64,000 bases of DNA from Amaurobius ferox (Eukaryota > Arthropoda > Arachnida > Araneae > Amaurobiidae). Under the pieces are notes generated by a model, which did not search any database, was not told where the DNA came from, and saw nothing but the letters and a program-made list of their open reading frames with translations. Shown here piece by piece: positions 20,908-63,530 of this stretch. The DNA is taken from assembly GCA_951213105.1 (NCBI GenBank), contig OX578139.1, positions 72,108,754 through 72,172,753 on the forward strand, written 5' to 3'. The translations under genes and the position numbers were made by a program. Within the stretch, counting starts at the first letter, position 1, and each line of letters opens with the position of its first letter.

Positions 20908-21195
20908 TGTTGTTGATTGAAACCCAGACCGTCCGACCTACCAGAAAGGTGTAAGGTAACTGTTTGGACGGTCGGGAAGTGCCACCCAATTTAGACCGGA
21001 ACCCAGTGGGGGAGGCATCCACAGGGACCGTACCCTCCTTCCCCTACCTCCAACCTCTCGGAAGGACTTTCGGACCCACATGTTTAACGTGATCGTACTC
21101 CGCATGAACACGGCGGCTGTTTTGGCAGTGGCTGGAATCGAACTCGGGCCTACCGAGTGCAACTCCAGCGCGCTAACCAATGGGCTACCGCGCCC
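20908..21195 (-). mobile_element. SINE-1 copy inside satellite, period 1
   Basis: tRNA-derived SINE read on the minus strand: A box tagcccattgg and a B-box position reading gagttcgattcc at the right end, body with cacgttaaacatgtgggtcc, then a tail hairpin gaccgtcc/ggacggtc and a short (caa)n end. Flanked by the 15-bp duplication gcatttttaataagt (20893-20907 and 21196-21210), so the original event was retroposition into a monomer. The 80-codon frame inside it is incidental. Confidence 0.93.
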
Positions 21196-22962
21196 GCATT
21201 TTTAATAAGTGACATAATCCATATATTAAAATATATTAATTATTCAGGTTCATTAATGTAGCGTTAGCTTTGCAGTTTTGACGAAATTTTTGTAACTCTG
21301 GGGCGACATATTGCCAAGTTGGCGATACTTTGCAAAATTATTAGCTAAGTTCACATATTGCATCCCCAAGTGTTACAGATAAACGGAGTGACGGGTAATT
21401 CTTATATCCTATAATGTATGCCCGTCATATGAGGGAAATCTGGATTTGCGAAACATTAATTCCCGTATAGCGTCATTTTTGTCACTTTGGCAACATTTAA
21501 ATAGTCGCCAAGATGACCAAGTCTCGCTAAATTTCTCTTCAAATATTACGGATTGGCGGAGAAATTGGTCATCCTACTCATCCGACATCCTAAATAATTG
21601 GTCATCCTAAATAAACATTTATCAATATTGATAGCATTTTTAATAAGTGATATAATCCATATATTAAAATATATTAATTATTCAGGTTCATTAATGTAGC
21701 GTTAGCTTTGCAGTTTTGACGAAATTTTTGTAAATCTGGGGCGACATATTGCCAAGTTGGCGATACTTTGCAAAATTATTAGCTAAGTTCACCTATTGCA
21801 TCCCCAAGTGTTACAGATAAACGGAGTGACGGGTAATTCTTATATCCTATAATGTATGCCCGTCATATGAGGGAAATCTGGATTTGCGAAACATTAATTC
21901 CCGTATAGCGTCATTTTTGTCACTTTGGCAACATTTAAATAGTCGCCAAGATGACTAAGTCTCGCTAAATTCCTCTTCAAATATTACGGATTGGCGGAGA
22001 AATTGGTCATCCTACTCATCCGACATCCTAAATAATTGGTCATCCTAAATAAACATTTATCAATATTGATAGCATTTTTAATAAGTGATATAATCCATAT
22101 ATTAAAATATATTAATTATTCAGGTTCATTAATGTAGCGTTATCTTTGCAGTTTTGACGAAATTTTTGTAAATCTGGGGCGACATATTGCCAAGTTGGCG
22201 ATACTTTGCAAAATTATTAGCTAAGTTCACCTATTGCATCCCCAAGTGTTGCAGATAAACGGAGTGACGGGTAATTCTTATATCCTATAATGTATGCCCG
22301 TCATATGAGGGAAATCTGGATTTGCGAAACATTAATTCCCGTATAGCGTCATTTTTGTCACTTTGGCAACATTTAAATACTCGCCAAGATGACTAAGTCT
22401 CGCTAAATTTATCTTCAAATATTACGGATTGGCGGGGAAATTGGTCATCCTACTCATCCGACATCCTAAATAATTGGTCATCCTAAATAAACATTTATCA
22501 ATATTGATAGCATTTTTAATAAGTGATATAATCCATATATTAAAATATATGAATTATTCAGGTTCATTAATGTAGCGTTATCTTTGCAGTTTTGACGAAA
22601 TTTTTGTAAATCTGGGGCGACATATTGCCAAGTTGGCGATACTTTGCAAAATTATTAGCTAAGTTCACCTATTGCATCCCCAAGTGTTACAGATAAACGG
22701 AGTGACGGGTAATTCTTATATCCTATAATGTATGCCCGTCATATGAGGGAAATCTGGATTTGCGAAACATTTATTCCCGTATAGCGTCATTTTTGTCACT
22801 TTGGCAACATTTAAATAGTCGCCAAGATGACTAAGTCTCGCTAAATTTCTCTTCAAATATTACGGATTGGCGAAGAAATTGGTCATCCTACTCATCCGAC
22901 ATCCTAAATAATTGGTCATCCTAAATAAACATTTATCAATATTGATAGCATTTTTAATAAGT

Positions 22963-23250
22963 TGTTGTTGATTGAAACCCAGACCGTCCGACCTACCAGA
23001 AAGGTGTAAGGTAACTGTTTGGACGGTCGGGAAGTGCCACCCAATTTAGACCGGAACCCAGTGGGGGAGGCATCCACAGGGACCGTACCCTCCTTCCCCT
23101 ACCACCAACCTCTCGGAAGGACTTTCGGACCCACATGTTTAACGTGATCGTACTCCGCATGAACACGGCGGCTGTTTTGGCAGTGGCTGGAATCGAACTC
23201 GGGCCTACCGAGTGCAACTCCAGCGCGCTAACCAATGGGCTACCGCGCTC
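22963..23250 (-). mobile_element. SINE-1 copy inside satellite, period 2
   Basis: Same insertion point, same flanks and almost the same sequence as the copy 2055 bp to the left, with changes such as taccaccaacc and cgctcgc at the right edge. It is therefore an amplified copy, not a new insertion. Confidence 0.93.
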
Positions 23251-25018
23251 GCATTTTTAATAAGTGACATAATCCATATATTAAAATATATTAATTATTC
23301 AGGTTCATTAATGTAGCGTTAGCTTTGCAGTTTTGACGAAATTTTTGTAACTCTGGGGCGACATATTGCCAAGTTGGCGATACTTTGCAAAATTATTAGC
23401 TAAGTTCACATATTGCATCCCCAAGTGTTACAGATAAACGGAGTGACGGGTAATTCTTATATCCTATAATGTATGCCCGTCATATGAGGGAAATCTGGAT
23501 TTGCGAAACATTAATTCCCGTATAGCGTCATTTTTGTCACTTTGGCAACATTTAAATAGTCGCCAAGATGACCAAGTCTCGCTAAATTTCTCTTCAAATA
23601 TTACGGATTGGCGGAGAAATTGGTCATCCTACTCATCCGACATCCTAAATAATTGGTCATCCTAAATAAACATTTATCAATATTGATAGCATTTTTAATA
23701 AGTGATATAATCCATATATTAAAATATATTAATTATTCAGGTTCATTAATGTAGCGTTAGCTTTGCAGTTTTGACGAAATTTTTGTAAATCTGGGGCGAC
23801 ATATTGCCAAGTTGGCGATACTTTGCAAAATTATTAGCTAAGTTCACCTATTGCATCCCCAAGTGTTACAGATAAACGGAAGTGACGGGTAATTCTTATA
23901 TCCTATAATGTATGCCCGTCATATGAGGGAAATCTGGATTTGCGAAACATTAATTCCCGTATAGCGTCATTTTTGTCACTTTGGCAACATTTAAATAGTC
24001 GCCAAGATGACTAAGTCTCGCTAAATTCCTCTTCAAATATTACGGATTGGCGGAGAAATTGGTCATCCTACTCATCCGACATCCTAAATAATTGGTCATC
24101 CTAAATAAACATTTATCAATATTGATAGCATTTTTAATAAGTGATATAATCCATATATTAAAATATATTAATTATTCAGGTTCATTAATGTAGCGTTATC
24201 TTTGCAGTTTTGACGAAATTTTTGTAAATCTGGGGCGACATATTGCCAAGTTGGCGATACTTTGCAAAATTATTAGCTAAGTTCACCTATTGCATCCCCA
24301 AGTGTTGCAGATAAACGGAGTGACGGGTAATTCTTATATCCTATAATGTATGCCCGTCATATGAGGGAAATCTGGATTTGCGAAACATTAATTCCCGTAT
24401 AGCGTCATTTTTGTCACTTTGGCAACATTTAAATACTCGCCAAGATGACTAAGTCTCGCTAAATTTATCTTCAAATATTACGGATTGGCGGGGAAATTGG
24501 TCATCCTACTCATCCGACATCCTAAATAATTGGTCATCCTAAATAAACATTTATCAATATTGATAGCATTTTTAATAAGTGATATAATCCATATATTAAA
24601 ATATATGAATTATTCAGGTTCATTAATGTAGCGTTATCTTTGCAGTTTTGACGAAATTTTTGTAAATCTGGGGCGACATATTGCCAAGTTGGCGATACTT
24701 TGCAAAATTATTAGCTAAGTTCACCTATTGCATCCCCAAGTGTTACAGATAAACGGAGTGACGGGTAATTCTTATATCCTATAATGTATGCCCGTCATAT
24801 GAGGGAAATCTGGATTTGCGAAACATTTATTCCCGTATAGCGTCATTTTTGTCACTTTGGCAACATTTAAATAGTCGCCAAGATGACTAAGTCTCGCTAA
24901 ATTTCTCTTCAAATATTACGGATTGGCGAAGAAATTGGTCATCCTACTCATCCGACATCCTAAATAATTGGTCATCCTAAATAAACATTTATCAATATTG
25001 ATAGCATTTTTAATAAGT

Positions 25019-25306
25019 TGTTGTTGATTGAAACCCAGACCGTCCGACCTACCAGAAAGGTGTAAGGTAACTGTTTGGACGGTCGGGAAGTGCCACCCAA
25101 TTTAGACCGGAACCCAGTGGGGGAGGCATCCACAGGGACCGTACCCTCCTTCCCCTACCACCAACCTCTCGGAAGGACTTTCGGACCCACATGTTTAACG
25201 TGATCGTACTCCGCATGAACACGGCGGCTGTTTTGGCAGTGGCTGGAATCGAACTCGGGCCTACCGAGTGCAACTCCAGCGCGCTAACCAATGGGCTACC
25301 GCGCTC
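25019..25306 (-). mobile_element. SINE-1 copy inside satellite, period 3
   Basis: Shares taccaccaacc and cgctcgc with periods 2 and 4, so period 1 is the outlier. The spacing from period 2 is 2056 rather than 2055 because one base was added at about 23881 (cggaagtgacgg). Confidence 0.93.
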
Positions 25307-27073
25307 GCATTTTTAATAAGTGACATAATCCATATATTAAAATATATTAATTATTCAGGTTCATTAATGTAGCGTTAGCTTTGCAGTTTTGACGAAATTT
25401 TTGTAACTCTGGGGCGACATATTGCCAAGTTGGCGATACTTTGCAAAATTATTAGCTAAGTTCACATATTGCATCCCCAAGTGTTACAGATAAACGGAGT
25501 GACGGGTAATTCTTATATCCTATAATGTATGCCCGTCATATGAGGGAAATCTGGATTTGCGAAACATTAATTCCCGTATAGCGTCATTTTTGTCACTTTG
25601 GCAACATTTAAATAGTCGCCAAGATGACTAAGTCTCGCTAAATTTCTCTTCAAATATTACGGATTGGCGGAGAAATTGGTCATCCTACTCATCCGACATA
25701 CTAAATAATTGGTCATCCTAAATAAACATTTATCAATATTGATAGCATTTTTAATAAGTGATATAATCCATATATTAAAATATATTAATTATTCAGGTTC
25801 ATTAATGTAGCGTTAGCTTTGCAGTTTTGACGAAATTTTTGTAAATCTGGGGCGACATATTGCCAAGTTGGCGATACTTTGCAAAATTATTAGCTAAGTT
25901 CACCTATTGCATCCCCAAGTGTTCCAGATAAACGGAGTGACGGGTAATTCTTATATCCTATAATGTATGCCCGTCATATGAGGGAAATCTGGATTTGCGA
26001 AACATTAATTCCCGTATAGCGTCATTTTTGTCACTTTGGCAACATTTAAATAGTCGCCAAGATGACTAAGTCTCGCTAAATTCCTCTTCAAATATTACGG
26101 ATTGGCGGAGAAATTGGTCATCCTACTCATCCGACATCCTAAATAATTGGTCATCCTAAATAAATATTTATCAATATTGATAGCATTTTTAATAAGTGAT
26201 ATAATCCATATATTAAAATATATTAATTATTCAGGTTCATTAATGTAGCGTTATCTTTGCAGTTTTGACGAAATTTTTGTAAATCTGGGGCGACATATTG
26301 CCAAGTTGGCGATACTTTGCAAAATTATTAGCTAAGTTCACCTATTGCATCCCCAAGTGTTGCAGATAAACGGAGTGACGGGTAATTCTTATATCCTATA
26401 ATGTATGCCCGTCATATGAGGGAAATCTGGATTTGCGAAACATTAATTCCCGTATAGCGTCATTTTTGTCACTTTGGCAACATTTAAATACTCGCCAAGA
26501 TGACTAAGTCTCGCTAAATTTATCTTCAAATATTACGGATTGGCGGGGAAATTGGTCATCCTACTCATCCGACATCCTAAATAATTGGTCATCCTAAATA
26601 AACATTTATCAATATTGATAGCATTTTTAATAAGTGATATAATCCATATATTAAAATATATGAATTATTCAGGTTCATTAATGTAGCGTTATCTTTGCAG
26701 TTTTGACGAAATTTTTGTAAATCTGGGGCGACATATTGCCAAGTTGGCGATACTTTGCAAAATTATTAGCTAAGTTCACCTATTGCATCCCCAAGTGTTA
26801 CAGATAAACGGAGTGACGGGTAATTCTTATATCCTATAATGTATGCCCGTCATATGAGGGAAATCTGGATTTGCGAAACATTTATTCCCGTATAGCGTCA
26901 TTTTTGTCACTTTGGCAACATTTAAATAGTCGCCAAGATGACTAAGTCTCGCTAAATTTCTCTTCAAATATTACGGATTGGCGAAGAAATTGGTCATCCT
27001 ACTCATCCGACATCCTAAATAATTGGTCATCCTAAATAAACATTTATCAATATTGATAGCATTTTTAATAAGT

Positions 27074-27361
27074 TGTTGTTGATTGAAACCCAGACCGTCC
27101 GACCTACCAGAAAGGTGTAAGGTAACTGTTTGGACGGTCGGGAAGTGCCACCCAATTTAGACCGGAACCCAGTGGGGGAGGCATCCACAGGGACCGTACC
27201 CTCCTTCCCCTACCACCAACCTCTCGGAAGGACTTTCGGACCCACATGTTTAACGTGATCGTACTCCGCATGAACACGGCGGCTGTTTTGGCAGTGGCTG
27301 GAATCGAACTCGGGCCTACCGAGTGCAACTCCAGCGCGCTAACCAATGGGCTACCGCGCTC
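27074..27361 (-). mobile_element. SINE-1 copy inside satellite, period 4
   Basis: Last SINE of the array. The second monomer after this copy shares the rare gttccagataaac variant with the second monomer after period 3, which shows that whole periods were copied. Confidence 0.93.
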
Positions 27362-29494
27362 GCATTTTTAATAAGTGACATAATCCATATATTAAAATAT
27401 ATTAATTATTCAGGTTCATTAATGTAGCGTTAGCTTTGCAGTTTTGACGAAATTTTTGTAACTCTGGGGCGACATATTGCCAAGTTGGCGATACTTTGCA
27501 AAATTATTAGCTAAGTTCACATATTGCATCCCCAAGTGTTACAGATAAACGGAGTGACGGGTAATTCTTATATCCTATAATGTATGCCCGTCATATGAGG
27601 GAAATCTGGATTTGCGAAACATTAATTCCCGTATAGCGTCATTTTTGTCACTTTGGCAACATTTAAATAGTCGCCAAGATGACTAAGTCTCGCTAAATTT
27701 CTCTTCAAATATTACGGATTGGCGGAGAAATTGGTCATCCTACTCATCCGACATCCTAAATAATTGGTCATCCTAAATAAACATTTATCAATATTGATAG
27801 CATTTTTAATAAGTGATATAATCCATATATTAAAATATATTAATTATTCAGGTTCATTAATGTAGCGTTAGCTTTGCAGTTTTGACGAAATTTTTGTAAA
27901 TCTGGGGCGACATATTGCCAAGTTGGCGATACTTTGCAAAATTATTAGCTAAGTTCACCTATTGCATCCCCAAGTGTTCCAGATAAACGGAGTGACGGGT
28001 AATTCTTATATCCTATAATGTATGCCCGTCATATGAGGGAAATCTGGATTTGCGAAACATTAATTCCCGTATAGCGTCATTTTTGTCACTTTGGCAACAT
28101 TTAAATAGTCGCCAAGATGACTAAGTCTCGCTAAATTCCTCTTCAAATATTACGGATTGGCGGAGAAATTGGTCATCCTACTCATCCGACATCCTAAATA
28201 ATTGGTCATCCTAAATAAATATTTATCAATATTGATAGCATTTTTAATAAGTGATATAATCCATATATTAAAATATATTAATTATTCAGGTTCATTAATG
28301 TAGCGTTATCTTTGCAGTTTTGACGAAATTTTTGTAAATCTGGGGCGACATATTGCCAAGTTGGCGATACTTTGCAAAATTATTAGCTAAGTTCACCTAT
28401 TGCATCCCCAAGTGTTGCAGATAAACGGAGTGACGGGTAATTCTTATATCCTATAATGTATGCCCGTCATATGAGGGAAATCTGGATTTGCGAAACATTA
28501 ATTCCCGTATAGCGTCATTTTTGTCACTTTGGCAACATTTAAATAGTCGCCAAGATGACTAAGTCTCGCTAAATTTATCTTCAAATATTACGGATTGGCG
28601 GAGAAATTGGTCATCCTACTCATCCGACATCCTAAATAATTGGTCATCCTAAATAAACATTTATCAATATTGATAGCATTTTTAATAAGTGATATAATCC
28701 ATATATTAAAATATATGAATTATTCAGGTTCATTAATGTAGCGTTAGCTTTGCAGTTTTGACGAAATTTTTGTAAATCTGGGGCGACATATTGCCAAGTT
28801 GGCGATACTTTGCAAAATTATTAGCTAAGTTCACATATTGCATCCCCAAGTGTTACAGATAAACGGAGTGACGGGTAATTCTTATATCCTATAATGTATG
28901 CCCGTCATATGAGGGAAATCTGGATTTGCGAAACATTAATTCCCGTATAGCGTCATTTTTGTCACTTTGGCAACATTTAAATAGTCGCCAAGATGACTAA
29001 GTCTCGCTAAATTTCTCTTCAAACATTACGGATTGGCGGAGAAATTGGTCATCCTACTCATCCGACATCCTAAATAATTGGTCATCCTAAATAAACATTT
29101 ATCAATATTGATAGCATTTTTAATAAGTGATATAATCCATATATTAAAATATATTAATTATTCAGGTTCATTAATGTAGCGTTAGCTTTGCAGTTTTGAC
29201 GAAATTTTTGTAACTCTGGGGCGACATATTGCCAAGTTGGCGATACTTTGCAAAATTATTAGCTAAGTTCACATATTGCATCCCCAAGTGTTACAGATAA
29301 ACGGAGTGACGGGTAATTCTTATATCCTATAATGTATGCCCGTCATATGAGGGAAATCTGGATTTGCGAAACATTAATTCCCGTATAGCGTCATTTTTGT
29401 CACTTTGGCAACATTTAAATAGTCGCCAAGATGACTAAGTCTCGCTAAATTTCTCTTCAAATATTACGGATTGGCGGAGAAATTTGTCATCCTA

Positions 29495-29797: not shown

Positions 29798-29837
29798 TTT
29801 TGAAGTGGGTCACGTGATATCTTCATATAATATGTGT

Positions 29838-30219
29838 TGTTGTTGAGACCCAGACCGTCCGACCTACCACAAAGGTGTAAGGTAACTGTATGGACTTCCG
29901 GGAAGTGCCACCCAATTTAGACCGGAACCCAGTGGGGGAGGCATCCACAGGGACCGTACCCTCCTTCCCCTACCACCAACCTCTCGGAAGGACTTACGGA
30001 CCCACATGTTTAACGTGATCGTACTCCGCATGAACACGGCGGCATTTGTGGCAGCGTGCAAATCTAGCGCGCAAACCACGGGGATACCGCACCCGAGATG
30101 GCCAACAGCACGCGGCGTTCCGAGGTGGTCACCCACCAAGTACTAACCGCGCCCGATGCTGCTTCACTTCGGTGATCTAACGAGAACCGGTGTTTTCAGC
30201 ACGGTACGGCCGTTGGCCC
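29838..30219 (-). mobile_element. 5S-rRNA/tRNA chimeric SINE, copy 1
   Basis: On the minus strand: a 5S-like head (30218-30101), a shortened tRNA-like segment (gggtgcggtatccccgtggt), the SINE-1 body and the gttgttgttgag tail. The stretch that holds the B box in SINE-1 (between tgcac and gccac) is missing, so only the A-box region of the tRNA part remains. Target duplication catataatatgtgt at 29824-29837 and 30220-30233. Confidence 0.88.
30101..30218 (-). rRNA. 5S rRNA-like head of chimeric SINE copy 1
   Basis: Reads ggccaacggccgtaccgtgc at its start, caccggttctcgttagatca, then ggttagtacttggtgggtga and gcgtgctgttggcc. These match the general 5S rRNA layout, including complementary ends and the internal Pol III promoter region. 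Not an independent 5S gene, because it is transposed together with the SINE body. Confidence 0.7.
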
Positions 30220-32988
30220 CATATAATATGTGTGTAATTACTATTTCAACTTTATTTAAAAAAACTTCGGAATATATCTTGCTGAATTTTTTTTCATATT
30301 TTTATGGGATAATTTGAATGTTTTCTAAAATTGTCGAAGCAATTTGTGAATTTTATATTCACTTAAAAAATGTTTGAAAAATTAGGTCCCATAGGGTTCA
30401 ATGCATTTCATTTTTTCAACATGGGTTCAATGCAAAACTAATGCCGTGGCATTATTCATTTATATTCCCATAGGTCCCACAGACCGTTTGAACAATATAC
30501 TTAAGTTTCATTTTGGTAAAGTCAATTTTACAGCAGTTATCGTGCGAACGGACAGCCAGACAGACTGTCAGGCAGAATGAACAAAGTCTTAAGCACTTTT
30601 CAACTAAGTTTTAAAGTGTTAAAAATTTACAAACTTCAAATACTTCTGCACCAAAAATAACGCATCTCTTCACATATAGTACGGCATTGAATAGATAACA
30701 GGCTCACATTTGTAAGCAAAGTTTATATACATAAGTTAATATCATCACATTCTTATCCAATCAGTTCCCGTAACAGACTTGGATGATTCTCAAGAATCTC
30801 AATCAATTAGGGAGAATATAGGTCAACAAAAACTCTGCCTTTCAGCTCCATCTAGTAAGGGGCTAGGAAATCACAGTTAAAAAATTTTAGCATGAGTATA
30901 GTTCAGAGAAACCCAATGGGTTCGCTAATGGCGATGGGGGGTTTTGGGGTAACCCTCTGAAATTCTGTGTATTTCAGAGAAATTATATTTGGATAAATGG
31001 GAAACAAAATATTTGGTAACTAACCCCTCCTCCCTCGCATTTCTTTTTACAGAAAACATTATTGGACATAGCAGGATTTTATTAGCGATTTCGAGCTTAA
31101 GTATTAGGTTAACTTCAATTCCCGAAATATCTTTTGATCCTTTGTGACGCCTGCGCAGGAGTAAAATTAAACAAAATATTCTGGGTTCACTACTGCCCAT
31201 CTTCTGTTTGCAAGTAATGTTGAGATAGGTAATATATTCAATTTAAATCGACACGTCTAAAATATACAATTTTACAGGGTTTTATTTCCCGGCACTCTAA
31301 AATAATTATTAGGTTGAATTGCGAATATTTCTTTAATCTCATTAAATTTCCATCTCCTTCAGTGTTGCCAGATAAACACATCTGCCAACACTTTATTATT
31401 CACAATCGGTAAACAAACAATGTTTATACCTGTTTATGTTTGTGTGTTGCACACATTTCTTTCACAGATACTTTTATTATCTATCTCTTTTCTCCAGAAG
31501 AAAATATCCCACTAGTCTTCTGCAATTTAATAAGAGCATTTATGACCACCTTTTGACAACTCATAATAAAATAATCCGTTGTACGCATCACAAGTAAGAA
31601 TTGATAAAGTTTCGAAATAAACTAAGCAATACTAGAAATGAGATGAATAACAGATATTAATCAAAATAAAAAAAAATTTCATGCGTAGTTTTCCCGATTT
31701 ATTGTGATTGTTTATATGAATATTTATACGAAATTTTTCGTTATAATTCTTTGCATGTATATGCAATACAGTAAATGTTACTACATTCTTAATCCTTTTA
31801 CGACTTTATTATACAAACGATGTATTATGTAACTAAACATTTCGTAGAAAGGATAATGTTTCAGCTTTCCTGCGGCATAAATTAACGATTATAAACGTAT
31901 CCGTGCATTTATCGCACATATTTTGGGAAATAAGTGCACCCATTCATGACTGAATAAATATTCCCAATAACAACCTCTTATTTAATTAATTCAACTCCAT
32001 GTACCATAATCACAAAGAAACACGGGTTGTAAGAGATATGTAGGATATGTATGTAGGATACAAATGTATCATATGTTTTTATGTTTAATAATTGAACATT
32101 TTGTGTAAATAAGTATACTACCATGAAGTATACGAATGTAAAAGATATAAATGTTTATTTAGTACAGAAATTTGATCAATTATCAAATTATTGGAAATAT
32201 ACTTATATGTATTTAGTATATGTGCTTACAACAGTATATGTCCTTATATTTAGTATAACAACTATACCAAAAATATTTCCAATGTTTCTCACAACATACG
32301 TTAGTCAAACGCCATTTAAAACCTTGCGCTTTCTAAAGGTATATTTAAGATCTAACATAACATAATCTCGATTGAACGGACGGGCTATACTATATATACA
32401 GTGCGACGCAAAAGTTTAGACCCAACAGTAATGTTTCTACAAAATGAGGTAGAATCAAACTCATACTTCAAACTTCACAAAACAATGCATTAGTGCCAAA
32501 AAGATCTCCGTTCTAAACTCTCTTGCAAAATAATGAAAGCAGATATTGAGAAAACATGTTTTGTGTTTTGATATTGCTCCAAAAACCTTGCAAAACTTTG
32601 TACTTTCTACGGAAAATCATGTTTCTGAGCTTATAAAATAGTGATTCATCATACACCATTCAAGATTTAAGATATTTATGTATTTAAAGAACTAGATCTT
32701 CAATTTGCACGTATCTCGATACATATTTTATATAGACTGATCCCGCTGCAATAATTAACATAAGTGAAACATCAGTGGCTTGGCTCGTCTTAAAATTCCT
32801 CAGCACCAATTAGTTTTCGGAACAGTAATTGAAAATAAACTGTTATGTTCTACAACCTTACAATAAAGCAAGACATTTATGAAATGTCGCTAAACTGCAA
32901 TTAACCTTCAAAAATACACTTAGCTCATAAAAGCATTAACGTTGATAAAAATTATCAACCATTTTAAAAGGCAATAATGAGCTGTATT

Positions 32989-35855: not shown

Positions 35856-36939
35856 TTTACTTGATTTGATAGTAACGTAATTTTTGTCTTGTATTATCCT
35901 TTCTCTTTAAGAACTATGTAATTAGAACTATCAAAAGATATCAAATTAATAAAACTACACAGTTACCATTAATTTTTCATTGTAAAAATAACTTTAATAA
36001 GTTTCTTATTCTCATTTGATTATATTGGAAAAATATTCAATGTGAGCAATTACAGTTGGAAAAATTAGTAATTTTAGGGGCGCCCAGTCCAACAATAATT
36101 GAGGGCTCTTTGTTTCTATATAATGAAAGGCAATGTCTGTCTTTCTGTCTGTGTGTCTTATACACTATACGTTCAGCAACCGCGCGTCGGAGAGCTACGA
36201 AATTTGGCAATCGGAGATCCGGGGGGTTGGAAAAGGACACGCGAAAACCGATTTTTAAAATTTTAGTTATTTTTTCTCTTATTTAATGTTTTATGCGATT
36301 ACAACCGTTTTTTGCCCTTTTTCCCCCTTTTACTTCACGATCCGGACGTCGTAGAAAAAACAAATCACACGACCGGAAAGAGCTGACAATTGTAAGTAAA
36401 AATATGTCAAATTCAAATCTCAATTTCGAATTCTAATATTTTTTAAAGATTTTAAAACAAAAGTCCCATTCGGTTAAAAAAAACCAACTTTCGTTTTTAA
36501 ATCCTCCCATCGTAAAAACTACTCATAATTTCGACTAATAATTTACATTTTTAGAAAGCTCAAACATCTGGCAAACATCTGGCATTACAAGTCCAATCTG
36601 GTCAAAAAATAATAAAAATTGCCCGCAGGATCGCAAATCGCAATCTTAAAGACGTCATGATTTCATATTTCTCGGCGAAGATCCGATTCTTCCCCGACAG
36701 CCCCGCCCAGAAATGGGGGGGACGTCACGCCCTTGCATCAGGTTGGAGTGATATTTTCCGCAGAAGTTTCTTCCACGTTTCCACGGAGACCGCGCTTCCG
36801 GTTTCAAATGAATAAAGAGCTTAGCATATGTGTTGTATACATCGGGTGAAATCATTATATTTATATTTTAAATGATAGAGCGATATGGATATTTAAATGG
36901 ATATTTTAAATGGATATTTTGTTAACTCCACGGGGTTGA
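35856..36939. other. Unassigned, with a TCTG/aaatttgg module and a GC-rich patch
   Basis: At 36115-36215 a TCTG-rich stretch (caatgtctgtctttctgtct) is followed by gagagctacgaaatttggca. This is the same arrangement found near the start of A- and B-elements although the flanks differ, so it may be a single copy of another interspersed family. 36690-36800 is GC-rich (ccccgcccagaaatgg) and unrecognised. Confidence 0.4.
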
Positions 36940-37228
36940 GGGATCGGTAGCCCAGTGGTTAGCGCACGGGAATTACACTCGGTAGGCCCGCCGGCCGTCC
37001 AAATAGTTGCTCTTAGTCCTCTGGACGAGTCGGACGGTCGGGGTCTTCAACTCGGTAGGCCCGGGTTCAATTCCCTCCGCTGCTAAAACTGCCGCCATGT
37101 TTAAGCGGAGTACGATCACGTTAAACATGTGGGTCCGTAAGTCCATCCGAGAGGTTGGTGATAGGGGAAGGAGGGTACGGTCCCTGTGGATGCTTCCTCC
37201 ACTGGGTTCCTATCTAAATTGGGTGAAT
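36940..37228 (+). mobile_element. SINE-1 copy interrupted by a mini-element
   Basis: A box tagcccagtgg near 36949, B box gggttcaattccc near 37061, body with tacgatcacgttaaacatgt, truncated after ctaaattgggtg so the tail hairpin is missing. Between the A and B boxes lies a 59-bp insertion (36991-37049) flanked by actcggtaggcccg on both sides. Confidence 0.88.
36991..37049 (+). mobile_element. Mini-element (about 60 bp hairpin retroposon), copy 1
   Basis: Sequence starts ccggccgtccaaatagttgc and ends gtcggacggtcggggtcttc. It is flanked by a perfect 14-bp duplication (actcggtaggcccg, 36977-36990 and 37050-37063), and removing one copy restores a normal SINE-1 head. Outer stem ccgtcc/ggacgg with an inner gtcc/ggac hairpin. 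Nearly the same sequence occurs on the minus strand at 53832-53897. Confidence 0.82.
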
Positions 37229-37255: not shown

Positions 37256-37518
37256 GAGGGCGCGGTAGCCCAGTGGTTTGCGTGCGGGATTTGCAGTCGG
37301 TAGGCCCGGGTTCGATTCCCGCCACTGTCAAAACTGCCGCCGTGTTCACGCGGAGTACGATCACGTTAACATGTGGGACCGTAAATCCTTCCGAAAGGTT
37401 TGTGGTAGGGGATGGAGGGTACGGTCCCTGTGGATTCTTCTCCCACTGGGTTCCGGTCTAAATTGGGTGGTACTTCCTGGCCGTCCAAACAGTTACCTTA
37501 CATCTTTCTTGTAGGTCG
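37256..37518 (+). mobile_element. SINE-1 copy fused to LINE relic
   Basis: Complete head and body with intact A and B boxes. The tail stops after cttgtaggtcg, inside the 3' hairpin, where LINE coding sequence begins without a gap. No (caa)n end and no target duplication were found at the junction. Confidence 0.9.
37266..37319 (+). promoter_or_regulatory. Pol III internal promoter (A and B boxes) of SINE-1
   Basis: A box tagcccagtgg (37266-37276) and B box ggttcgattcc (37309-37319), 32 bp apart, matching the TRGYnnAnnGG and GGTTCGAnTCC consensus. The best-preserved promoter of the family in this window. Confidence 0.8.
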
Positions 37519-38695
37519 CTTCAGCGAGTTTGCCACAGTCCTGTTGAGGATCGCCGGCGTTTATAGGACTTCTCCCTACGGGGCGTTATTTGTCCTCCTC
37601 GGTATCCCTCCTTTGCACCGGGTTCTTTGGAGCCTTTATTTTAAGGATATTTTTTGAAGAAGGAGGCGGGAGTGTTTTTCTGGCTCTCCCCTCCCCCATC
37701 CTGGTGATTTTGACTTTAGGCAGCCCTTTAATGAGATTTCTCCTTCTCGTCGCATTGTCGTGTTCCCTGAGATTCCTGGACCCCTTGGTGTTCGTATTTA
37801 TACCGATGGCTACAGAATCGATGGGAACGTTGGCTTTGCGGTATGTGTTTTTGCTCTGGCACTCTTATCCATGTGATTTCGAAGAAGTTGTCCTCTTACA
37901 ACACGGTTTTTCAGGCCGAGATCCTAGCTATTAAATTCGCGTGCAGCTGGGTTCTGCAAGATGGTAGGAGAGCGATTATATTTACAGATAGCCTTTCTTC
38001 TATCACCGCCTTGGCGTCCATTGGTGGCAAATCGGGGTTTTTACAGTCGATTAAGAACGAAGTTATTCTTGCTAGATCCTTGGTGGAACTTATAGGTGGG
38101 TTCGTTCCCACGTTGGTATCCCTGGTAACGAGGTGGAGGATAATTATGCGAAAGCTGCTGCCCTAGGCGGCGAGCCGCTGGTGGCCCCTGCCCCTTATTC
38201 ATTGCTGCCCAACTATGTTCGGACAGTACTGGGTGAGGAATGGCGGGCCTATGGGGACTCGCTGAATAGAGGTTCGTGCCCGGTTATTCCGTCCGGCCCC
38301 GGATGCTAAATTTCAAATTCAGGATGGGGCTTTGTTTCAGTTTTTATCTGGACATGGCCCCCTTCCCGAGTTACTTATATAGATTTGGTCGTAGGGCGTC
38401 CCCTTTATGTTTGTGTGGTGAAGAAGGGGGTGCCGATCATTATGTTTATGTCTGTTCGATGACTGAGGCCTTTCATCTTGGTAGACCTGCGGACGGACAC
38501 TGAGCGTTTTGGTTAAATAGGGTTCTGGCTCGCCCACAGTCCAACAATCGTATTAGGAACTGTGTCTCGGTTGCTGCCAAGATATGCGAAGAAATTGTAT
38601 AAGGGGGTGATCTGGTTCTGGTCATATATTTTGATCGTTTTGGTATTTGTCTTATTGAAAAGTTGTGTTAAACTTGTTTTTCTTAACCGTCCTTC
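37519..38695 (+). pseudogene. Non-LTR retrotransposon 3' end with RNase H domain, broken
   Basis: Remnant of the C-terminal part of a LINE polyprotein, spread over all frames by several frameshifts. In order: the end of the reverse-transcriptase region (LLRIAGVYRTSPYGALFVLL, about 37541-37600); the RNase H start IYTDGYRIDGNVGFAV (about 37795-37845); NTVFQAEILAIKFACSW and IIFTDSLSSITAL (about 37900-38020); VRSHVGIPGNEVEDNYAKAA (about 38100-38160); and a C-terminal CxC-H-C knuckle (CLCGEE...DHYVYVC, about 38405-38455). Acidic RNase H residues are visible in YTDG, AEILAI and FTDS. This domain order fits I/R1/Jockey-type elements. The 5' part (endonuclease and most of RT) is missing. The non-coding 3' end runs to about 38695, next to an A-element. 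Confidence 0.85.
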
Positions 38696-39663: not shown

Positions 39664-40830
39664 GTATTAAACAGATGAAATGTTGAAATTTTTAGTGTTC
39701 CGGGTGATTAAGGCTTTGCTTTTGGATGGAATTTTGTAAATATGTAAAATGGTTTTGTAAATATGTAAATTTGTTGTAAATAATATGTAATTTGTAAATT
39801 GGTTGTAAATAATATATTATATATAAATACTTTCAATACTGCCATTTAATGTGTTTACACATTTGGTGCTATGCAGTTTGTTATTGTTGACCCATCCGGC
39901 CTTTGTTTATTTTATTTAATTTTATGTTTTTATTTTCTGGAGTGTTTGGCCTTTTTCTTAAATGATATTTTTTTGTTAATTCAGAAATATATTGTTAGTA
40001 AAGAAAATTTAATTCCTGCAATTGTAATGCAGATGGATTGTAGACTGTGTAACGCCCTGGCCAGGCACCTCTTTTCCCTTTTATTTTTGAATGGATTTAG
40101 GAGTTCTTGGGAGGGAGAATTTGGCTGCTCGGCCGAGGTTACTATTGCCTTGTGCCACTCGTGGCAGGCACCTCGGGCCAGAGATTAAAGGGTAGCGAAC
40201 AGGCTGGTCGCCAAAGGCGGCTAATATAGAATAAATATTTTAGGCAATTAAATTATCAAAGTCGCAGGCTGAGTTTTAAAGGAAACATGCAACAATGTTG
40301 TTGAAGAGAAAGTAAATGATTTATCTGAGTTACTTTTACAGGGTTTGTTTCAACAATAAGAAATTATTTAGGTAAGTTACATTGTAAAATCATATACATT
40401 TATTTGAATAAAGTAAATTTATTTTTTAATTTATTAAATATACATATATTTCTGTTTTTTGGAAACAATAAAATGTGTAATATATAATTATAAAAGTGAA
40501 TATTAAATATATACTCATTTAGATAAAGAAAGAAATTCTTCAAAAATTAGTATTTCCGTAGTTCTGAATTTGTGAGTTTACTCCTTGTGATTGGCTAATG
40601 TTATTTAAAACAACTATTCATATAAAGGTATGCAACTACAAATATTTGACTCAACAGTTTAAGCTATAGTATGTATTCCACTCTCTCTGCATAATTTGGA
40701 GTTTTTGAAAAATGTATTTCATTTGACAGCAAATACTTTTGCATTGCTTAATACTTAGAATATTTGAAATATTAAGTAAAATATTTTATGCATAACATTG
40801 GAAATGTCATATAGATATAATTAGCATAAC
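39664..40830. other. Unassigned sequence
   Basis: 39720-39840 has repeated taaatatgtaaa and ttggttgtaaataatat units. 39860-40210 contains a 105-codon frame (MQFVIVDPSGLCLFYL) and the phrases tggccaggcacctc and gtggcaggcacctcgg. The block from about 39840 (acacatttggtgctatgcag) could be the edge of an LTR element, but no paired LTR is visible. Confidence 0.3.
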
Positions 40831-40841
40831 CGCCAAACACT

Positions 40842-41263
40842 GTTGTTGTTGAGACCCAGACCGTCCGACCTACCAGAAAGGTGTAAGGTAACCGTTTAGG
40901 TTTACCAGAAAGGGGTACGTTGTCTTTAAGGTAACCAGAAATGTGTAAGGCCGGGAAGTGCCACCCAATTTAGACCGGAACTCAGTGGGGGAGGCATCCA
41001 TAGGGACCGCACCCTCCGTCCCCTATCACCAACCTCTCGGATGGACTTGCGGATCCACATATTTAACGTGATCGTACTCCGCATGAACACGACGGCAGTT
41101 GTGGCAGCGCTCAAACCACCTGGCTACCGCGCCCGAAATGTGCCAACAGCACGCGGTGTTCCCAGGTGGTCACCCACCCAAGTACTAACCGCGCGCGATG
41201 CTGCTTGACTTCGGTGATCTAACGAGAACCGGTGTTTTCAGCACTGTAGGGCTGTTGGCCCGC
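40842..41263 (-). mobile_element. 5S-rRNA/tRNA chimeric SINE, copy 2
   Basis: Minus strand: 5S-like head (41260-41142), a very short tRNA-like remnant (cgggcgcggtagcc), the SINE-1 body and a tail with an internal duplication of a taccagaaagg-type block (about 40878-40950). Again no B box: the junction is gcgctgccacaactgccg. Flanked by cgccaaacact at 40831-40841 and 41264-41274. Confidence 0.87.
41142..41260 (-). rRNA. 5S rRNA-like head of chimeric SINE copy 2
   Basis: Contains caccggttctcgttagatca, agtcaagcagcatcgcgcgc, gtacttgggtgggtgaccac and ctgggaacaccgcgtgctgt on the minus strand. The box C region (gggtgaccacctgggaa) is closer to standard 5S than in the other two chimeras. Part of a SINE, not a 5S locus. 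Confidence 0.7.
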
Positions 41264-41274
41264 CGCCAAACACT

Positions 41275-41573
41275 GTTGTTGTTATTGTTGTTGAGACCCA
41301 GACCGTCTGACCTACCAGAAAGGTGTAAGGCAACTGTTTGGACGGCCGGGAAGTGCCACCCAATTTAGACCGGAACCCAGTGGGGGAGGCATCCACAGGG
41401 ACCGTACCCTCCTTCCCCTACCACCAACCTCTCGGCAGGACTTACGGACCCACATGTTTAACGTGATCGTACTCCGCGTGAACACGGCGGCAGTTTTGGC
41501 AGTGGCTGGAATCGAACCCGGGCCTACCGAGTGCAACTCCAGCGAGCTAACCAATGGGCTACCGCGCCCACGC
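41275..41573 (-). mobile_element. SINE-1 copy at the same target site as the chimera
   Basis: Full-length SINE-1 with intact A and B boxes and a (gtt)n tail at its left edge. Its right flank is again cgccaaacact (41574-41584), the sequence that also flanks the neighbouring chimera on both sides. A 12-nt interruption (gttattgttgtt) lies in the tail. Confidence 0.92.
41508..41561 (-). promoter_or_regulatory. Pol III internal promoter of SINE-1 (minus)
   Basis: B box ggttcgattcc (41508-41518) and A box tagcccattgg (41551-41561) on the minus strand, with normal spacing. Confidence 0.78.
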
Positions 41574-41641
41574 CGCCAAACACTCTATTTTAAATGCGCT
41601 TGTATCCTAAATTGTGGATCTTTTGTCCTAAAACTAAATCT

Positions 41642-47106: not shown

Positions 47107-47120
47107 ACAAGAGAATGGTT

Positions 47121-47498
47121 TTGGGCCAACGGCCGTACCGTGCTGAAAACACCGGTTCTCGTTAGATCACCGAAGTGAAGCAGCATCGGGCGCGGTTAGT
47201 ACTTGGTGGGTGACCACCTCGGAACGCCGCGTGCTGTTGGCCATCTCGGGTGCGGTATCCCCGTGGTTTGCGCGCTAGATTTGCACGCTGCCACAAATGC
47301 CGCCGTGTTCATACGGAGTACGATCACGTTAAACATGTGGGTCCGTAAGTCCTTCCGAGAGGTTGGTGGTAGGGGAAGGAGGGTACGGTCCCTGTGGATG
47401 CCGCCCCCACTGGGTTCCGGTCTAAATTGGGTGGCACTTCCCGGCCGTCCATACAGTTACCTTACACCTTTCTGGTAGGTCGGACGGTCTGGGTCTCA
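47121..47498 (+). mobile_element. 5S-rRNA/tRNA chimeric SINE, copy 3
   Basis: Plus strand: 5S-like head, catctcgggtgcggtatccc tRNA-like remnant, the same B-box-lacking junction (tttgcacgctgccacaaatg) as copy 1, SINE-1 body, and tail hairpin ending in ggacggtctgggtctca. Perfect 14-bp target duplication acaagagaatggtt at 47107-47120 and 47499-47512. Fully sized and cleanly flanked, so this is the reference copy. Confidence 0.92.
47125..47241 (+). rRNA. 5S rRNA-like head of chimeric SINE copy 3
   Basis: About 117 nt with complementary ends (gccaacggcc at the start, gctgttggcc at the end). The internal promoter region has agtgaagcagcatcggg and tgggtgaccacctcggaa. One or two bases are missing in acttggtgggtg relative to the usual acttggatgggtg. 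Carried by the SINE. Confidence 0.72.
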
Positions 47499-47763
47499 AC
47501 AAGAGAATGGTTAAAGTCTCGATCATTTATTTGGACGAATTGTGAAATATAAATATTAAATGCCATTAATAATGCCATTATGTTAATGCCATTAGATTAA
47601 TTTCATATAATTCATAATACCATTAATATTAAATGCCATAATTAAATGACATTGAAAGGGCATTTATCACACGGCCTAGAAAAACACCCATAAACCCATA
47701 AGTTACGTGATTTCAACCGTGATGAAACTGCACTTTAATGAACTTTATATACTTGTTACATGG

Positions 47764-48036
47764 GGTGGGACAGCCAAATGGTTAAGGCACGAGGATTGTA
47801 TTCGGAGGACCCGAGTTCGATTCCGGATTCTGCTCAAAGTGTCCCCGTGTTCATGCAAAGCACGGACACGTTAAATATGTGGATCTAAAAGTCTTTCCGA
47901 GAGGTTGATGGTAGAGGAAGGAGGTTACTGTCCCTATGGATATAGTCCCCAGTGGATTCCGGTCTAATTTGGGTGCCACTATTCCTGCCATTCAAAAAGA
48001 TACCTTACACTTTTGGGAAGGTTGATCGGTATGAGT
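47764..48036 (+). mobile_element. Old, diverged SINE-1 relative
   Basis: acagccaaatggttaaggca (A-box region) and gagttcgattccgg (B box), then cacgttaaatatgtgg, ttccgagaggttgatgg and a tail (ccttacacttttgggaaggt). Same order as SINE-1 with many substitutions. The tail stem can no longer pair. Confidence 0.8.
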
Positions 48037-48239
48037 CAAAAGAAATAAAGATACTTGTTAGACGTTTTGATTCCATTATTTATACGTTTACTATATATTT
48101 TCATTTATATTTACAACCTTTGTTCATGTTTTTATGTGCATTATAAACGTTTCTTTCATCTATCAAGTAATTAGTATTGCCGTCTTTTGATCAAGTGATA
48201 ATTAGTCCGTGTGACAGGCAGTAAAACTTCAAAGAATAG

Positions 48240-53575: not shown

Positions 53576-53831
53576 CTTCTAGAATTTTTAATCTGCGACT
53601 GGTATTGCAATCAACAGGGTTGTTTCATCGTCGATATGACTCAGGAAGACAACGAGCACTAACGGAAAATGCCTATTTCTATCTTAGCCTATTTCTATCT
53701 TAGCCTATTTCTCGTTTTATCCATATGCTAGTGTCCGGCCCGTAAGTAATGAACCACAGCTTCCTTTGTCTACCCAAAACCGCTACCTGTCTTCTCGAAC
53801 CCGCCATCTGCTGTACTGCATGCAAGAGTGT

Positions 53832-53897
53832 GTTGAAAACCCAGACCGTCCGACTCATCCTGAGGACTTGAGCAACTATTTGGACGGCCGAGAAAGG
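53832..53897 (-). mobile_element. Mini-element (about 60 bp hairpin retroposon), copy 2
   Basis: Plus-strand reading cccagaccgtccgactcatc through gcaactatttggacggcc is the reverse complement of copy 1 with few changes. Flanked by a perfect 13-bp duplication catgcaagagtgt (53819-53831 and 53898-53910). No SINE head or body is attached. Confidence 0.85.
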
Positions 53898-53919
53898 CAT
53901 GCAAGAGTGTATGGTAAAA

Positions 53920-54905
53920 GGATGATGTTGCTAGTCCCCAGCCAGGACCGAATTCGGGACCTCGTGCTTACAAGACCGACATTATAACCATAGAGCAAAA
54001 GCTAGCTCTAGCTCCGTTCTTATAATTCGGGTACAGGTTCCAAGCATCTTTGATCAGATGTCTTTGCTGCCGCACACTCCCCTACCTGATGAGGAGTCCG
54101 GGTCAAATTTTGACGAGGAGGGGGCCGCCCCGAAAACCCCCGCGTGTCCCCGTCCGAATTTCAGTTGAGGGCCGAAGGCCGGGAGGCGTGTTCTCTGTGC
54201 GTGACGTCAGTCGTGGTCAACCAGGAAGGGAGTGGCAAGGCTTCTGACTCCGTGTGGTGCTGCTATCTGATGTTGAGAGGTGAGATCGTTGGCGTGAGAA
54301 GGTTGCGTTGTTCAAACGTCCAGTCATCATTGTGGCGGAAGGATGATGTTGCTAGTCCCGAGACAGGTCCGAAATCGGGACCTCGTGCTTATTAGACCGA
54401 CATTATTAGCATAGAGCAAAAGCTAGCTCCAGCTCCGTTCTTATAATTCGGGTATAGGTTCCAAGCATCTTTGATCAGATGTCTTTGCTGCCGCACACTC
54501 CCCTACCTGATGAGGAGCCCGGGTCGAATTTCGGCGAGGAGGAGGTCGCCCTGAAAACCCCCGCGTGTCCCCGTCCGAATTTCAGTTGAGGGCCGAAGGC
54601 CGGGAGGCGTGTTGCCTCGTGCGTGACGTCAGTCGTGGTCAACCAGGAAGGGAGTGGTAAGGCTTCTGACTCCGTGTGGTGCTGCCATCTGATGTTGGGA
54701 GGTGAGCTTGTTGGCGTGAGAAGTTTGCGTTGTTCAAACGTCCAGTCATCATTGTGGTGGAAGGATGATGTTGCTAGTCCCGAGACAGGACCGAACTCGG
54801 GACCTCGTGCTTATTAGACCGACATTATAAGCATAGAGCAAAATCCAGCTTCAGCTCCGTTCTTATAATTCGGGTACAGGTTCCAAGCATCTTTGATCAG
54901 ATGCT
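53920..54905 (-). repeat. 421-bp GC-rich tandem repeat with tRNA-Thr-like segment, about 2.3 copies
   Basis: ggatgatgttgctagtcc begins at 53920, 54341 and 54763; tctttgctgccgcacactcc at 54061 and 54482. On the minus strand each unit has a tRNA-like block: in the first copy, ctctatggttataatgtcgg, tcttgtaagcacgaggtccc and gaattcggtcctgg, where the anticodon loop position reads cttgtaa, as in tRNA-Thr (TGT). The other two copies have ctaataa there. Frames of 64-83 codons recur with the unit but show no domain. Probably a tandemly duplicated SINE (SINE-3). Confidence 0.8.
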
Positions 54906-55249
54906 TACCGATTCGTCTGTAAGGTCTCTCAATTTGCTGGAAATAGTGCAATGACAAAAATGTGTTAGAAACCAATTGAGTCAATTGAAAACCGTAGATT
55001 TAAATGATCCTGGTTGATTTCAAAATTTGAAAGGCATGCTTAGTTTTACATGGATTTCATCAGTAAAGTATCTGATAGGGGCGGGCAAATTCATAGTAAT
55101 CTGTTTTAGTTACCTTATTTAAGTGTTAAAATAACTTTTAACCAGTATCATCTGCCTGTATTTAATTGTTTTAAAAACAAACAATATCAAAAATTGTTTT
55201 AACCCCCTCCCCCCCTAAAGGATTTCTGTGCATCCATTCAATCTGTGAA

Positions 55250-55312
55250 AAACCCAGACCACACGACAGACCCAAAGGCTTATAGTAGCTATTTGTGTGG
55301 GCGGATCTATTA
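55250..55312 (-). mobile_element. Mini-element, copy 3 (covaried stem)
   Basis: Plus-strand reading acccagaccacacgacagac through atttgtgtgggcgg has the same layout as copies 1 and 2, but the stem accgtcc/ggacgg has become accacac/gtgtggg. Flanked by the imperfectly placed 10-bp repeat aatctgtgaa (55240-55249 and 55313-55322). Most diverged of the three. Confidence 0.62.
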
Positions 55313-55862
55313 AATCTGTGAACGACCCCTGTATTCATGAATTTTGATGTTTAAAAGAGTACCGAAATGTCACAAGAAAGTGGTGTATGTCAGGAATTTT
55401 GATAATTTATTTGGTCCTAAATTTGAACTTTTAAGAACCGAATTTTTCTTTTGTTTGACTAAATGAGGAAGTGACAAAACTTTTGTAATTTGATTTTTGA
55501 CATTTATTATTTCTTCAACGAAGCCTAATTTTAACTTATGCAGAATGCAAATATCTGAAGCGATTGTAAGGTGAGTTACATAAGAATTGCTGCATTTTTT
55601 TCACACAAAATTATTTAGCTCCGGAGTCTGGAATACAAGTTATATGAATGAAATATTTATTGATTTTGCATAGAGAATCAGATGATTTATATTTCGATAC
55701 AGTTTTAAATATTTAAGTACAATAAATTACTGTAGTACTGTGATAATGTAAAAGATATAACCATTGAGTGTATCACATTTTAAACATTTTTAAATGAAAT
55801 TGCATTTCAGTTGGAAAGTGTCTCATAATCAATGCTTATGCATGATTGATCTTTCTTGTTTT
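55313..55862 (+). mobile_element. B-element 3' part with associated segment
   Basis: 55313-55490 matches 5680-5880. 55495-55862 matches the distal part of B-elements (cttcaacgaagcctaatttt, gaatgaaatatttattgatt) and ends in gcatgattgatctttcttg. Confidence 0.65.
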
Positions 55863-61609: not shown

Positions 61610-61942
61610 CAGGGTGGTCATAAAAAATCTTCCCCGATATATAAACCCCTAGTGGGCTATCCTCTCAACCAATCGTAAGGGAATTTCAGATATTTTTAAT
61701 TGAAGGTATGCGCTCGAGATTGTGATGGTTTCAAACAATAGCGCTCTCAAGATTACGGTTACAGTGAAAACATTTCGAAATTTTCGATTGGCAACACTCA
61801 CCTTTTTCCTGCGCATATTGATCAGGACATTGAAAAACCATAAATGGCGTTGGAACGATACACGTATGACGAAAATTGGCGGAGTAAAACATTTGCAAAG
61901 AAGAGCATTGTAAAAGACAATGACAACACAAGAGAGGAGAGG
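61610..61942. repeat. Left terminal inverted repeat of mariner-like element
   Basis: Matches the reverse complement of the right TIR over most of its length, from ttccccgatatataaacccc inwards to agagaggag. An apparent 112-codon minus-strand frame (61649-61987) is only TIR sequence; the same peptide phrases appear in the other TIR (ALLFETITISS versus ALLFEIITISS). Confidence 0.88.
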
Positions 61943-62079
61943 GGAGAAAAAACTTTTATTAGAATCACAAATTTTCAACGTGTCCACCTTCGCAGACGAT
62001 AAGGCATTGCATGCGGGAGATTGTTGACAACAATGACGAACGCATCATCGCAGGAGGACTCTGTATAACGTCACGTTTA

Positions 62080-63028
62080 TGGCATCTTTAATCATGGATT
62101 TGATGTGTACACCTTAGATTTCAGATAACCCCAGAATAAGAAATCCATCGGAGTGAGGTCGGGGGATTGCGGTGGTCACGAAACTGCCATGTTACGGGAG
62201 ATGACTCTATCACCAAAGTTCTGTTGCAGCACTGGTCGAACACATGTAGCGACGTGTGGAGGAGCACCATCTTGCATTCATACATTCTCATTAACGGCAT
62301 TTCGCTGCTGCAATTCTGGAATTACGTAATTCTGCAACATTGTTTTATACCGAGGACCTGTAATGGAGCACGTTTGCATACCATTAGATGTGATCTCTTC
62401 GGAGAAGTACGGACCGAGAACGAATGTGCTTGTGATGCCGCACCACACAGTCTCTTTAGCTTGGTCTAAAATCACTGGTGCCACTTGGTGAGAATTTTCG
62501 TTAGCCGAGTACAAGCAGTTCTTGGAGTATGTTACCAGTTAAGGAGGAATGTGCCTCATCTGTCCATAATATCCGCAGCGGCCACCTGCTATCTTCATCA
62601 TATCTGATGAGGAAAAAATTCGCAAAGTCGACACGCTGTTGCTCGTCTCCAGGTTGCAACATCTGGACGCGCTGGAATCGATATGGAAGCATCCGCAGAA
62701 CAGAGCGCAGAAGCTTGAGGACTGTGGTTTTCGGTACATCCAGATTTCGGACAACACTTCTTGCAGTACGCAATGGACTTGCAGTAATCGTATTATGCAC
62801 GTCCGCAACAACTTCAACAGGAACAGATGATTGTACGGATCGCGATCTATCACATGTGCATCCAGTTTCTTGCAATTTTTTTACCAGATCACGTACAGTT
62901 CGTACAGAACATGGGCCTCTTCCTAGCTTATGATTTCGCCGATAAACTCGCACTGCTTCGGCAGCATTTTCCCCTTTCAGATAAAACAGCTTTATCAGTT
63001 CACCTCGTTGTTTCCCTGTAAGTGTCAT
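62080..63028 (-). pseudogene. Mariner-like DDE transposase, broken
   Basis: The ATG at 63028 opens MTLTGKQRGELIKLFYLKGE, followed by a bipartite helix-turn-helix DNA-binding region (SVRTVRDLVKKLQETGCTCD, then a second helix set with VPKTTVLKLLRSVLRMLPYR) and the catalytic part. First aspartate is in ILWTDEAHSSL. A frameshift near 62510 moves the reading to TVWCGITSTFVLGPYFSEE and NYVIPELQQRNAVNENV. An in-frame TGA then precedes MQDGAPPHVA (second aspartate) and another TGA precedes PPQSPDLTPMDF (third). Later codons to about 62080 are decayed. The order is that of Tc1/mariner DDE transposases, spanning about 315 codons in total. At least one frameshift and two stops make it inactive. Confidence 0.88.
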
Positions 63029-63178
63029 CTTGTTGGCACGTTCAAACACCTGATTGAAGAAACAATCTTCCCACAAGGTTTATAAAAGATTTTCCACAAG
63101 CAATGCTTTGCACATGTTGTTCTGTGATTGGTGCTTCTACTGTCTATCCCTGTGAATTATGCAAAATGCGTCAATGCA

Positions 63179-63530
63179 CCTCCTCTCTGTATTGCCATTG
63201 GTCGTTTACAATGTTCTTCTTTGCAAATGAATCAATTTTCATCATACGTTTTCATCACGCCGGCAATTTTCATCATACGTGTATCGTTCCAACGCCATTT
63301 ATGGCTTTTCAATGCGCTGATCAATTTGCGCAGGAAAAAAGTGGGAGTTGCCATTAAAAATTTTCGAATTTGTTTTATTGCAACCGTAACCGTGAGAGCT
63401 CTATTGTTTGAAATCATCACAATCTCGAGCCCATACCTTCAAATAACAATATTTGAAATTTCGTTTCGATTGGTTGAGCGGATATGCCGCTAGGGGTTCA
63501 TATATCGGGGAAGTTTTTTAAAACAACATA
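63179..63530. repeat. Right terminal inverted repeat of mariner-like element
   Basis: Inverted partner of 61610-61942. A short local duplication (catcatacgt with ttttcat, about 63236-63280) makes it slightly longer than the left TIR. Confidence 0.88.

Follow-up and report, generated by a model that had tools for sequence, protein, structure and literature searches.

Three free-standing hairpins and their flanks

The window analysed here is a stretch of 64,000 nucleotides of the Amaurobius ferox genome (contig OX578139.1). It contains three short free-standing hairpins, designated A, B, and C, which lie between exact target-site duplications at the following positions.

36991..37049, + strand: hairpin A, 59 bp, within the tRNA-like head of a SINE-1 copy
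36977..36990, + strand: left target-site duplication of A, actcggtaggcccg
37050..37063, + strand: right target-site duplication of A, actcggtaggcccg
53832..53896, - strand: hairpin B (65 bp), which serves as the type of the B subfamily
53897..53910, - strand: target-site duplication on the 5' side of B, acactcttgcatgc
53818..53831, - strand: target-site duplication on the 3' side of B, acactcttgcatgc
55250..55312, - strand: hairpin C (63 bp), a C-subfamily member whose stem shows compensatory changes
55313..55322, - strand: target-site duplication on the 5' side of C, ttcacagatt
55240..55249, - strand: target-site duplication on the 3' side of C, ttcacagatt

All three copies had been noticed in a sequence-only reading of the window and were located where it had placed them. 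Its duplication lengths were exact for A (14 bp) and C (10 bp), but that of B is 14 bp rather than 13 bp. Of 16,661 random places in the window outside the satellite, 151 were flanked by an exact repeat of at least 10 bp and 46 by one of at least 14 bp. Because repeats of this kind are so rare at random places and all three hairpins have them, the duplications are not due to chance. The pre-insertion sequence of A is known, since its joined flanks align ungapped across the junction to six other SINE-1 places, i.e. paralogous empty sites; four of the six recur within a single satellite. No empty site for B or C was found within the window; the remaining units of the 422-bp tandem repeat at B end short of the B junction. 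A, B, and C are real insertions. The 422-bp repeat itself (2.3 copies, 53918-54903) adjoins hairpin B, and a tRNA-like SINE head was recognized inside it by eye.

The three copies had also been described as sharing one loop. This holds for A and B, which share AAATAGTTGCTC, but not for C, whose loop is AAATAGCTACTAT and whose stem is formed by GCCCACAC and GTGTGGTC; C represents a subfamily separate from A/B. In BLAST comparisons, C is linked to B by only one exact word of 12 nt, and its match to the SINE-1 tails amounts to 72% over 47 nt (E 0.39). The kinship of C to the other hairpins lies mainly in the common fold, with compensatory stem changes.

Rfam (E up to 1) and ARAGORN gave no match on the hairpins of the window. 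Ribozyme and microRNA readings were dropped, given the lack of an Rfam match and a 3' tail that extends well past the stem. Three short-pattern matches in IMG/VR were set aside as chance since the rest of the hairpin was absent from them, and a two-part pattern yielded no match in IMG/VR. Elsewhere in the window, an ORF with a match to the DUF4817 helix-turn-helix domain (62504-63079, - strand) lies between inverted repeats (61623-61885 and 63257-63519); this 61623-63519 segment is probably a DNA transposon.

SINE-1 copies and genome-wide occurrence

SINE-1 copies in the window carry one of two head types, either tRNA-like or 5S rRNA joined to part of the tRNA-like head. The copies relevant to the hairpins are as follows.

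36938..37225, + strand: SINE-1 copy hosting insertion A; its own 3' hairpin is absent
41288..41569, - strand: tRNA-headed SINE-1 with hairpin tail, first of a two-SINE array
40846..41261, - strand: 5S-headed SINE-1 with rearranged hairpin tail, second member of that array
41573-41583, 41263-41273, and 40830-40840: three copies of the repeat of that array, gtgtttggcgg
47123..47499, + strand: 5S-headed SINE-1 ending in a hairpin; repeat aagagaatggtt at 47109-47120 and 47501-47512
29843..30219, - strand: 5S-headed SINE-1 ending in a hairpin; repeat acacatattatatg at 30220-30233 and 29824-29837

Rfam 5S matches on the 5S-headed copies, at 29840-30219 (-), 47123-47502 (+), and 40846-41261 (-), score 96-101 bits. 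A 438-bp satellite (20017-29413; 19 copies of a 300-nt part) contains a tRNA-headed SINE-1 every 2,055-2,056 bp, a SINE insertion that has multiplied as part of a higher-order repeat. At 37471-37537 of the window and at positions 6800-6866 of another locus (L044), the SINE hairpin is broken after GGTC and followed by another tail (CAGCGAGTTTGCCACAG), an alternative 3' end.

The source genome comprises 3,564,777,782 bases in 276 contigs. A genome search with B listed 42 places, with 40 of 328 candidates scored, and 29 loci outside the window were excised for reading. A script detected a flanking duplication at the matched hairpin in 24 of these 29 and none in the other five (L008, L009, L011, L017, and L023). 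Genome-wide, exact matches to a 26-nt piece of B number 1,485, against none for the piece read backwards. With a C-type hairpin from the blind sample described below as the query, 40 of 2,024 first-look candidates were scored and 41 places listed; among the eight read, seven are single hairpins and one (L058) is arrayed with a SINE-1 copy and another hairpin.

For the blind sample, 167,787 bases were read in seventeen stretches of 10 kb, placed at round coordinates of six contigs. They contained 26 hairpins, of which 10 are SINE-1 tails and 16 lack a SINE body, one of the 16 being cut within the hairpin (L038, position 1332). Extrapolation gives ~340,000 free-standing copies in the genome, with bootstrap limits of 85,000 to 660,000. 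In all scanned sequence, 101 hairpins were counted (39 and 64 from two scans, minus 2 in L004, which is the window itself and was dropped from the counts), 25 with a SINE-1 body and 76 without; a rearranged SINE tail of the window (40849-40910) was also dropped. Hairpins this short would probably go unnoticed in standard repeat annotation.

Ends, fold, and arrays

Free-standing hairpins are ~50-66 bp long and have discrete ends: the 5' end falls sharply at the hairpin base, the 3' end is GGGTYTTCA-like, and no SINE-type RNA-gene head is present between the 5' duplication and the stem. Their duplications are mostly 14-16 bp long and begin with AC(AC). A duplication score of at least 8 was obtained for 62 of 72 free-standing hairpins vs 365 of 1,937 mismatched flank pairs, a null that is high (19%) owing to CA repeats and recurring hairpin ends; at a score of at least 10, the numbers were 57 of 72 and 147 of 1,937. 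Two hairpins too near the locus ends were left out of this test, and the cut hairpin of L038 does not enter the tables of ends and duplications. Elements standing first in a cluster have a duplication in 39 of 47 cases (34/39 outside CA repeats). In 30 of the 34 cases outside CA repeats, its length is 14-16 bp when up to two mismatches are tolerated. Relative to the stem, the 5' ends of the 34 range from -6 to +3 nt and peak at -5/-4 and at 0; the table of these leaders left out L009, a paralogue of L008, and five leaders inside CA repeats.

The target site is loosely TTTAC|ACACA, two positions of which were imposed by the script, as it demanded an AC start of the right-hand repeat; many insertions lie outside AC repeats. 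At L016 and L026, the left repeat begins with ACGC and the right with ACAC, as would be expected if the RNA's own ACAC end were copied at the right junction. One arrayed B-type hairpin (L023, 1400-1561) differs from its neighbours by ~26 additional nucleotides that separate the repeat from the 5' end of the hairpin.

A, B, C, and most SINE-1 tails adopt the same fold, which consists of a stem of ~10 pairs, a one-sided internal loop of 8 nt, and two short inner helices; the sequence of an old SINE copy at 47970-48040 does not adopt it when folded by itself. The fold was evaluated in 17 sequences (the three window hairpins, 13 other blind-sample hairpins, and one SINE-1 tail) using a MAFFT alignment (A3) and an RNAalifold structure. 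Paired cells amounted to 92.4%, compared with 23-46% for slid versions of the structure, over which the fold has an advantage in being derived from the tested sequences themselves. Both-sided changes were found at 8 of the 17 base pairs of this alignment, and the covariation score was matched by none of 500 shuffles. Because the helices covary, these alignments point to conservation of the hairpin as an RNA fold.

In 16 clusters, hairpins, sometimes together with SINE-1 copies, stand in a row in a single orientation. In 14 of the 16, visual comparison shows that the spacer repeats a single target sequence (at L047, 676-737, the match to the target covers 8 nt only), and the other two clusters lie in CA repeats. 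Gaps from one hairpin to the next measure 11-18 nt in 22 of 24 cases. Same-strand neighbours number 29, and opposite-strand neighbours within 150 bp are confined to two pairs, both in L011, where a separate SINE is involved. By our own count, arrays contain 12 of the 16 free-standing hairpins of the blind sample; five arrays hold 13 of its 26 insertions, which implies eight re-insertions at a used site. An exact pattern joining a hairpin or SINE end to a C-type start occurs 57 times genome-wide and never backwards, and the 46 junctions printed comprise 31 SINE-type ends, 14 hairpin-type ends, and one that is neither.

In the clearest array, L015, five hairpins and two SINE-1 copies are set apart by acacatagaagcat; its repeats are alike at the left and change stepwise rightward. 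In L010, L011, L015, L029, L047, and L058, the array repeat is common to SINE-1 copies, in some cases in changed form. The suggestion that the hairpins use the same machinery as SINE-1 is supported by this sharing of one target duplication within single arrays. Among nine hairpin-first arrays outside CA repeats, the left repeats are closer in four, the right in two, and both are equal in three (after visual inspection changed the right-hand value of L048 from 3 to 1; the raw script counts were 5, 2, and 2). These counts, together with the graded examples L015 and L033, suggest but do not establish that arrays grow at the 5' side; such growth would also be expected if the enzyme needed the sequence left of the nick, which is intact there.

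Origin of the hairpins and relation to known systems

We consider that the hairpin is a headless free-standing insertion, probably a retroposon for which a LINE enzyme uses a discrete hairpin RNA as template in target-primed reverse transcription. A LINE-encoded enzyme would nick the loose target site, and the CAACAC-like 3' end of the hairpin RNA would anneal to the primer. Reverse transcription would stop at the hairpin base, the template being the hairpin alone, e.g. a piece protected by bound enzyme. An insertion of this kind would leave the site intact, so that later hairpins and SINEs could enter at the same regenerated nick, and serial entry would give rise to an array in which target duplications form the repeats. 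In the three LINE 3' regions sampled, no LINE ending in the hairpin was found. Only one of these (L055) reached the LINE 3' end, and this copy ends in (ATTCA)n with no hairpin. A LINE piece bearing RNase H, from ~37518 of the window, is likewise followed by no hairpin, the next covariance match being at 40123 (E 0.39). RVT_1 gave 59,916 first-look candidates in the genome; 150 were scored, and many of these are near-identical ORFs of 1,221-1,271 amino acids.

Each hairpin might instead be an extremely 5'-truncated copy of a longer LINE or SINE RNA, on which the enzyme stops at the hairpin base, and would then have no lineage or RNA of its own. SINE-1 tails do share the fold and the 3' motif, and the strong stem is a plausible stop. 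Some hairpins do come from SINE-1 RNA, since one free-standing copy has the SINE-1 loop (L047, position 6934) and one is the copy cut within the hairpin. However, the SINE-1 head is reached within 10 bp in 22 of the 25 SINE-1 copies (four of the 25 lie in one satellite), and the remaining three comprise two truncated within the 5S head and one with a break in its body. Lengths in the sequence read fall in two size classes with no grading series of truncations, and the B and C loops are absent from the 25 longer SINE-bodied elements read. Random 5' ends grading into longer SINEs with the same loop had been named in advance as the sign of simple truncation; the sequence read speaks against it. 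Comparison of 138 bp upstream of 43 leaders revealed no common parent: 11 upstream pairs are similar, of which eight are in CA-rich flanks, one is a 21-bp match (L021/L031), and two are paralogous loci (L008/L009, a duplicated region sharing 2.7 kb at 95%, and L051/L054). We therefore regard truncation as a rather unlikely general origin. The sequence-only reading had left the choice between a distinct, very short retroposon and a truncated SINE; the sharp 5' ends, the full-length SINE-1 copies, and the parentless leaders favour the former.

Arrays could also have arisen by tandem duplication or by unequal recombination between target duplications rather than by serial insertion. Units composed of a hairpin and a repeat should be easily expanded in this way, and similar B-like hairpins do stand side by side in L016 and L023. 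Most arrays, however, combine clearly different hairpins separated by one repeated target duplication, and some include 5S- or tRNA-headed SINE-1 copies with one repeat throughout, which makes this origin highly improbable. We give next to no credence to a reading of the hairpins as very short MITE-like DNA transposons. The stem arms would then be terminal inverted repeats, and they do form imperfect inverted repeats near both ends. Nevertheless, 12 of the 17 sequences have a G-U pair at the same stem position and the inner helices covary too, which indicates pairing in RNA; the ends are asymmetric, with a 3' tail, and CAA runs follow SINE-1 copies. Duplications of 14-16 bp are also longer than is usual for DNA transposons.

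Beyond the retroposon origin preferred here, it is possible, although we propose this only tentatively, that the hairpin has been reduced to the recognition structure of the reverse transcriptase and forms a parasite class of its own. This class would comprise several lineages and hundreds of thousands of copies, would enter repeatedly at one nick with growth at the 5' side, and would leave ordered, CRISPR-like arrays that record retroposition insertion by insertion. The likeness to CRISPR arrays concerns the layout only: in both, differing units of uniform orientation are separated by a short repeat, which here would be copied with each insertion. Unlike in CRISPR arrays, the units are homologous hairpins and SINE-1 copies rather than unrelated spacers, the repeat of each array derives from its target site, and the genome is eukaryotic. 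The R1-clade LINEs Waldo and Mino have AC-repeat targets, and the hairpins resemble these LINEs and R1 itself in AC-rich site preference and in duplications near 14 bp; in contrast to these LINEs, the site is loose, with many insertions outside AC repeats, and no LINE of this kind was found here.

Sharing of a 3' stem-loop between mobile elements is typical of the stringent-type LINE/SINE pairs (UnaL2/UnaSINE1, SART1, and monocot L1 with its SINEs). In those pairs the stem-loop is a LINE or SINE tail, whereas here several subfamilies also have it standing by itself, with neither head nor body, and it forms arrays. LINE enzymes recognize 3' stem-loops, for which an asymmetric internal loop has been described (PMC5135761), and the tails of monocot LINEs and SINEs can form hairpins of ~50 nt with compensatory changes (PMC3747384). 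The latter source also mentions tailless retropseudogenes, which in mammals derive from truncated tRNAs or tRNA-related SINE RNAs (PMC3747384). These are likewise very short retroposed RNA pieces, but the piece found here is a 3' hairpin with constant ends. Titles and abstract openings, mostly from the open literature, yielded no published account of hairpin-only retroposons or of such arrays, a negative of little weight.

If the proposed origin is correct, hairpins of ~60 letters would be among the smallest retroposons, and the LINE enzyme would need little more RNA than a recognition hairpin with a few nucleotides at its 3' end. The compensatory changes among the natural subfamilies would provide a ready mutational scan of the RNA-enzyme interface. 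Since each array is a succession of insertions into a single site, arrays could help to place the activity of SINE and hairpin subfamilies in order and to examine how retroposition sites are re-used.
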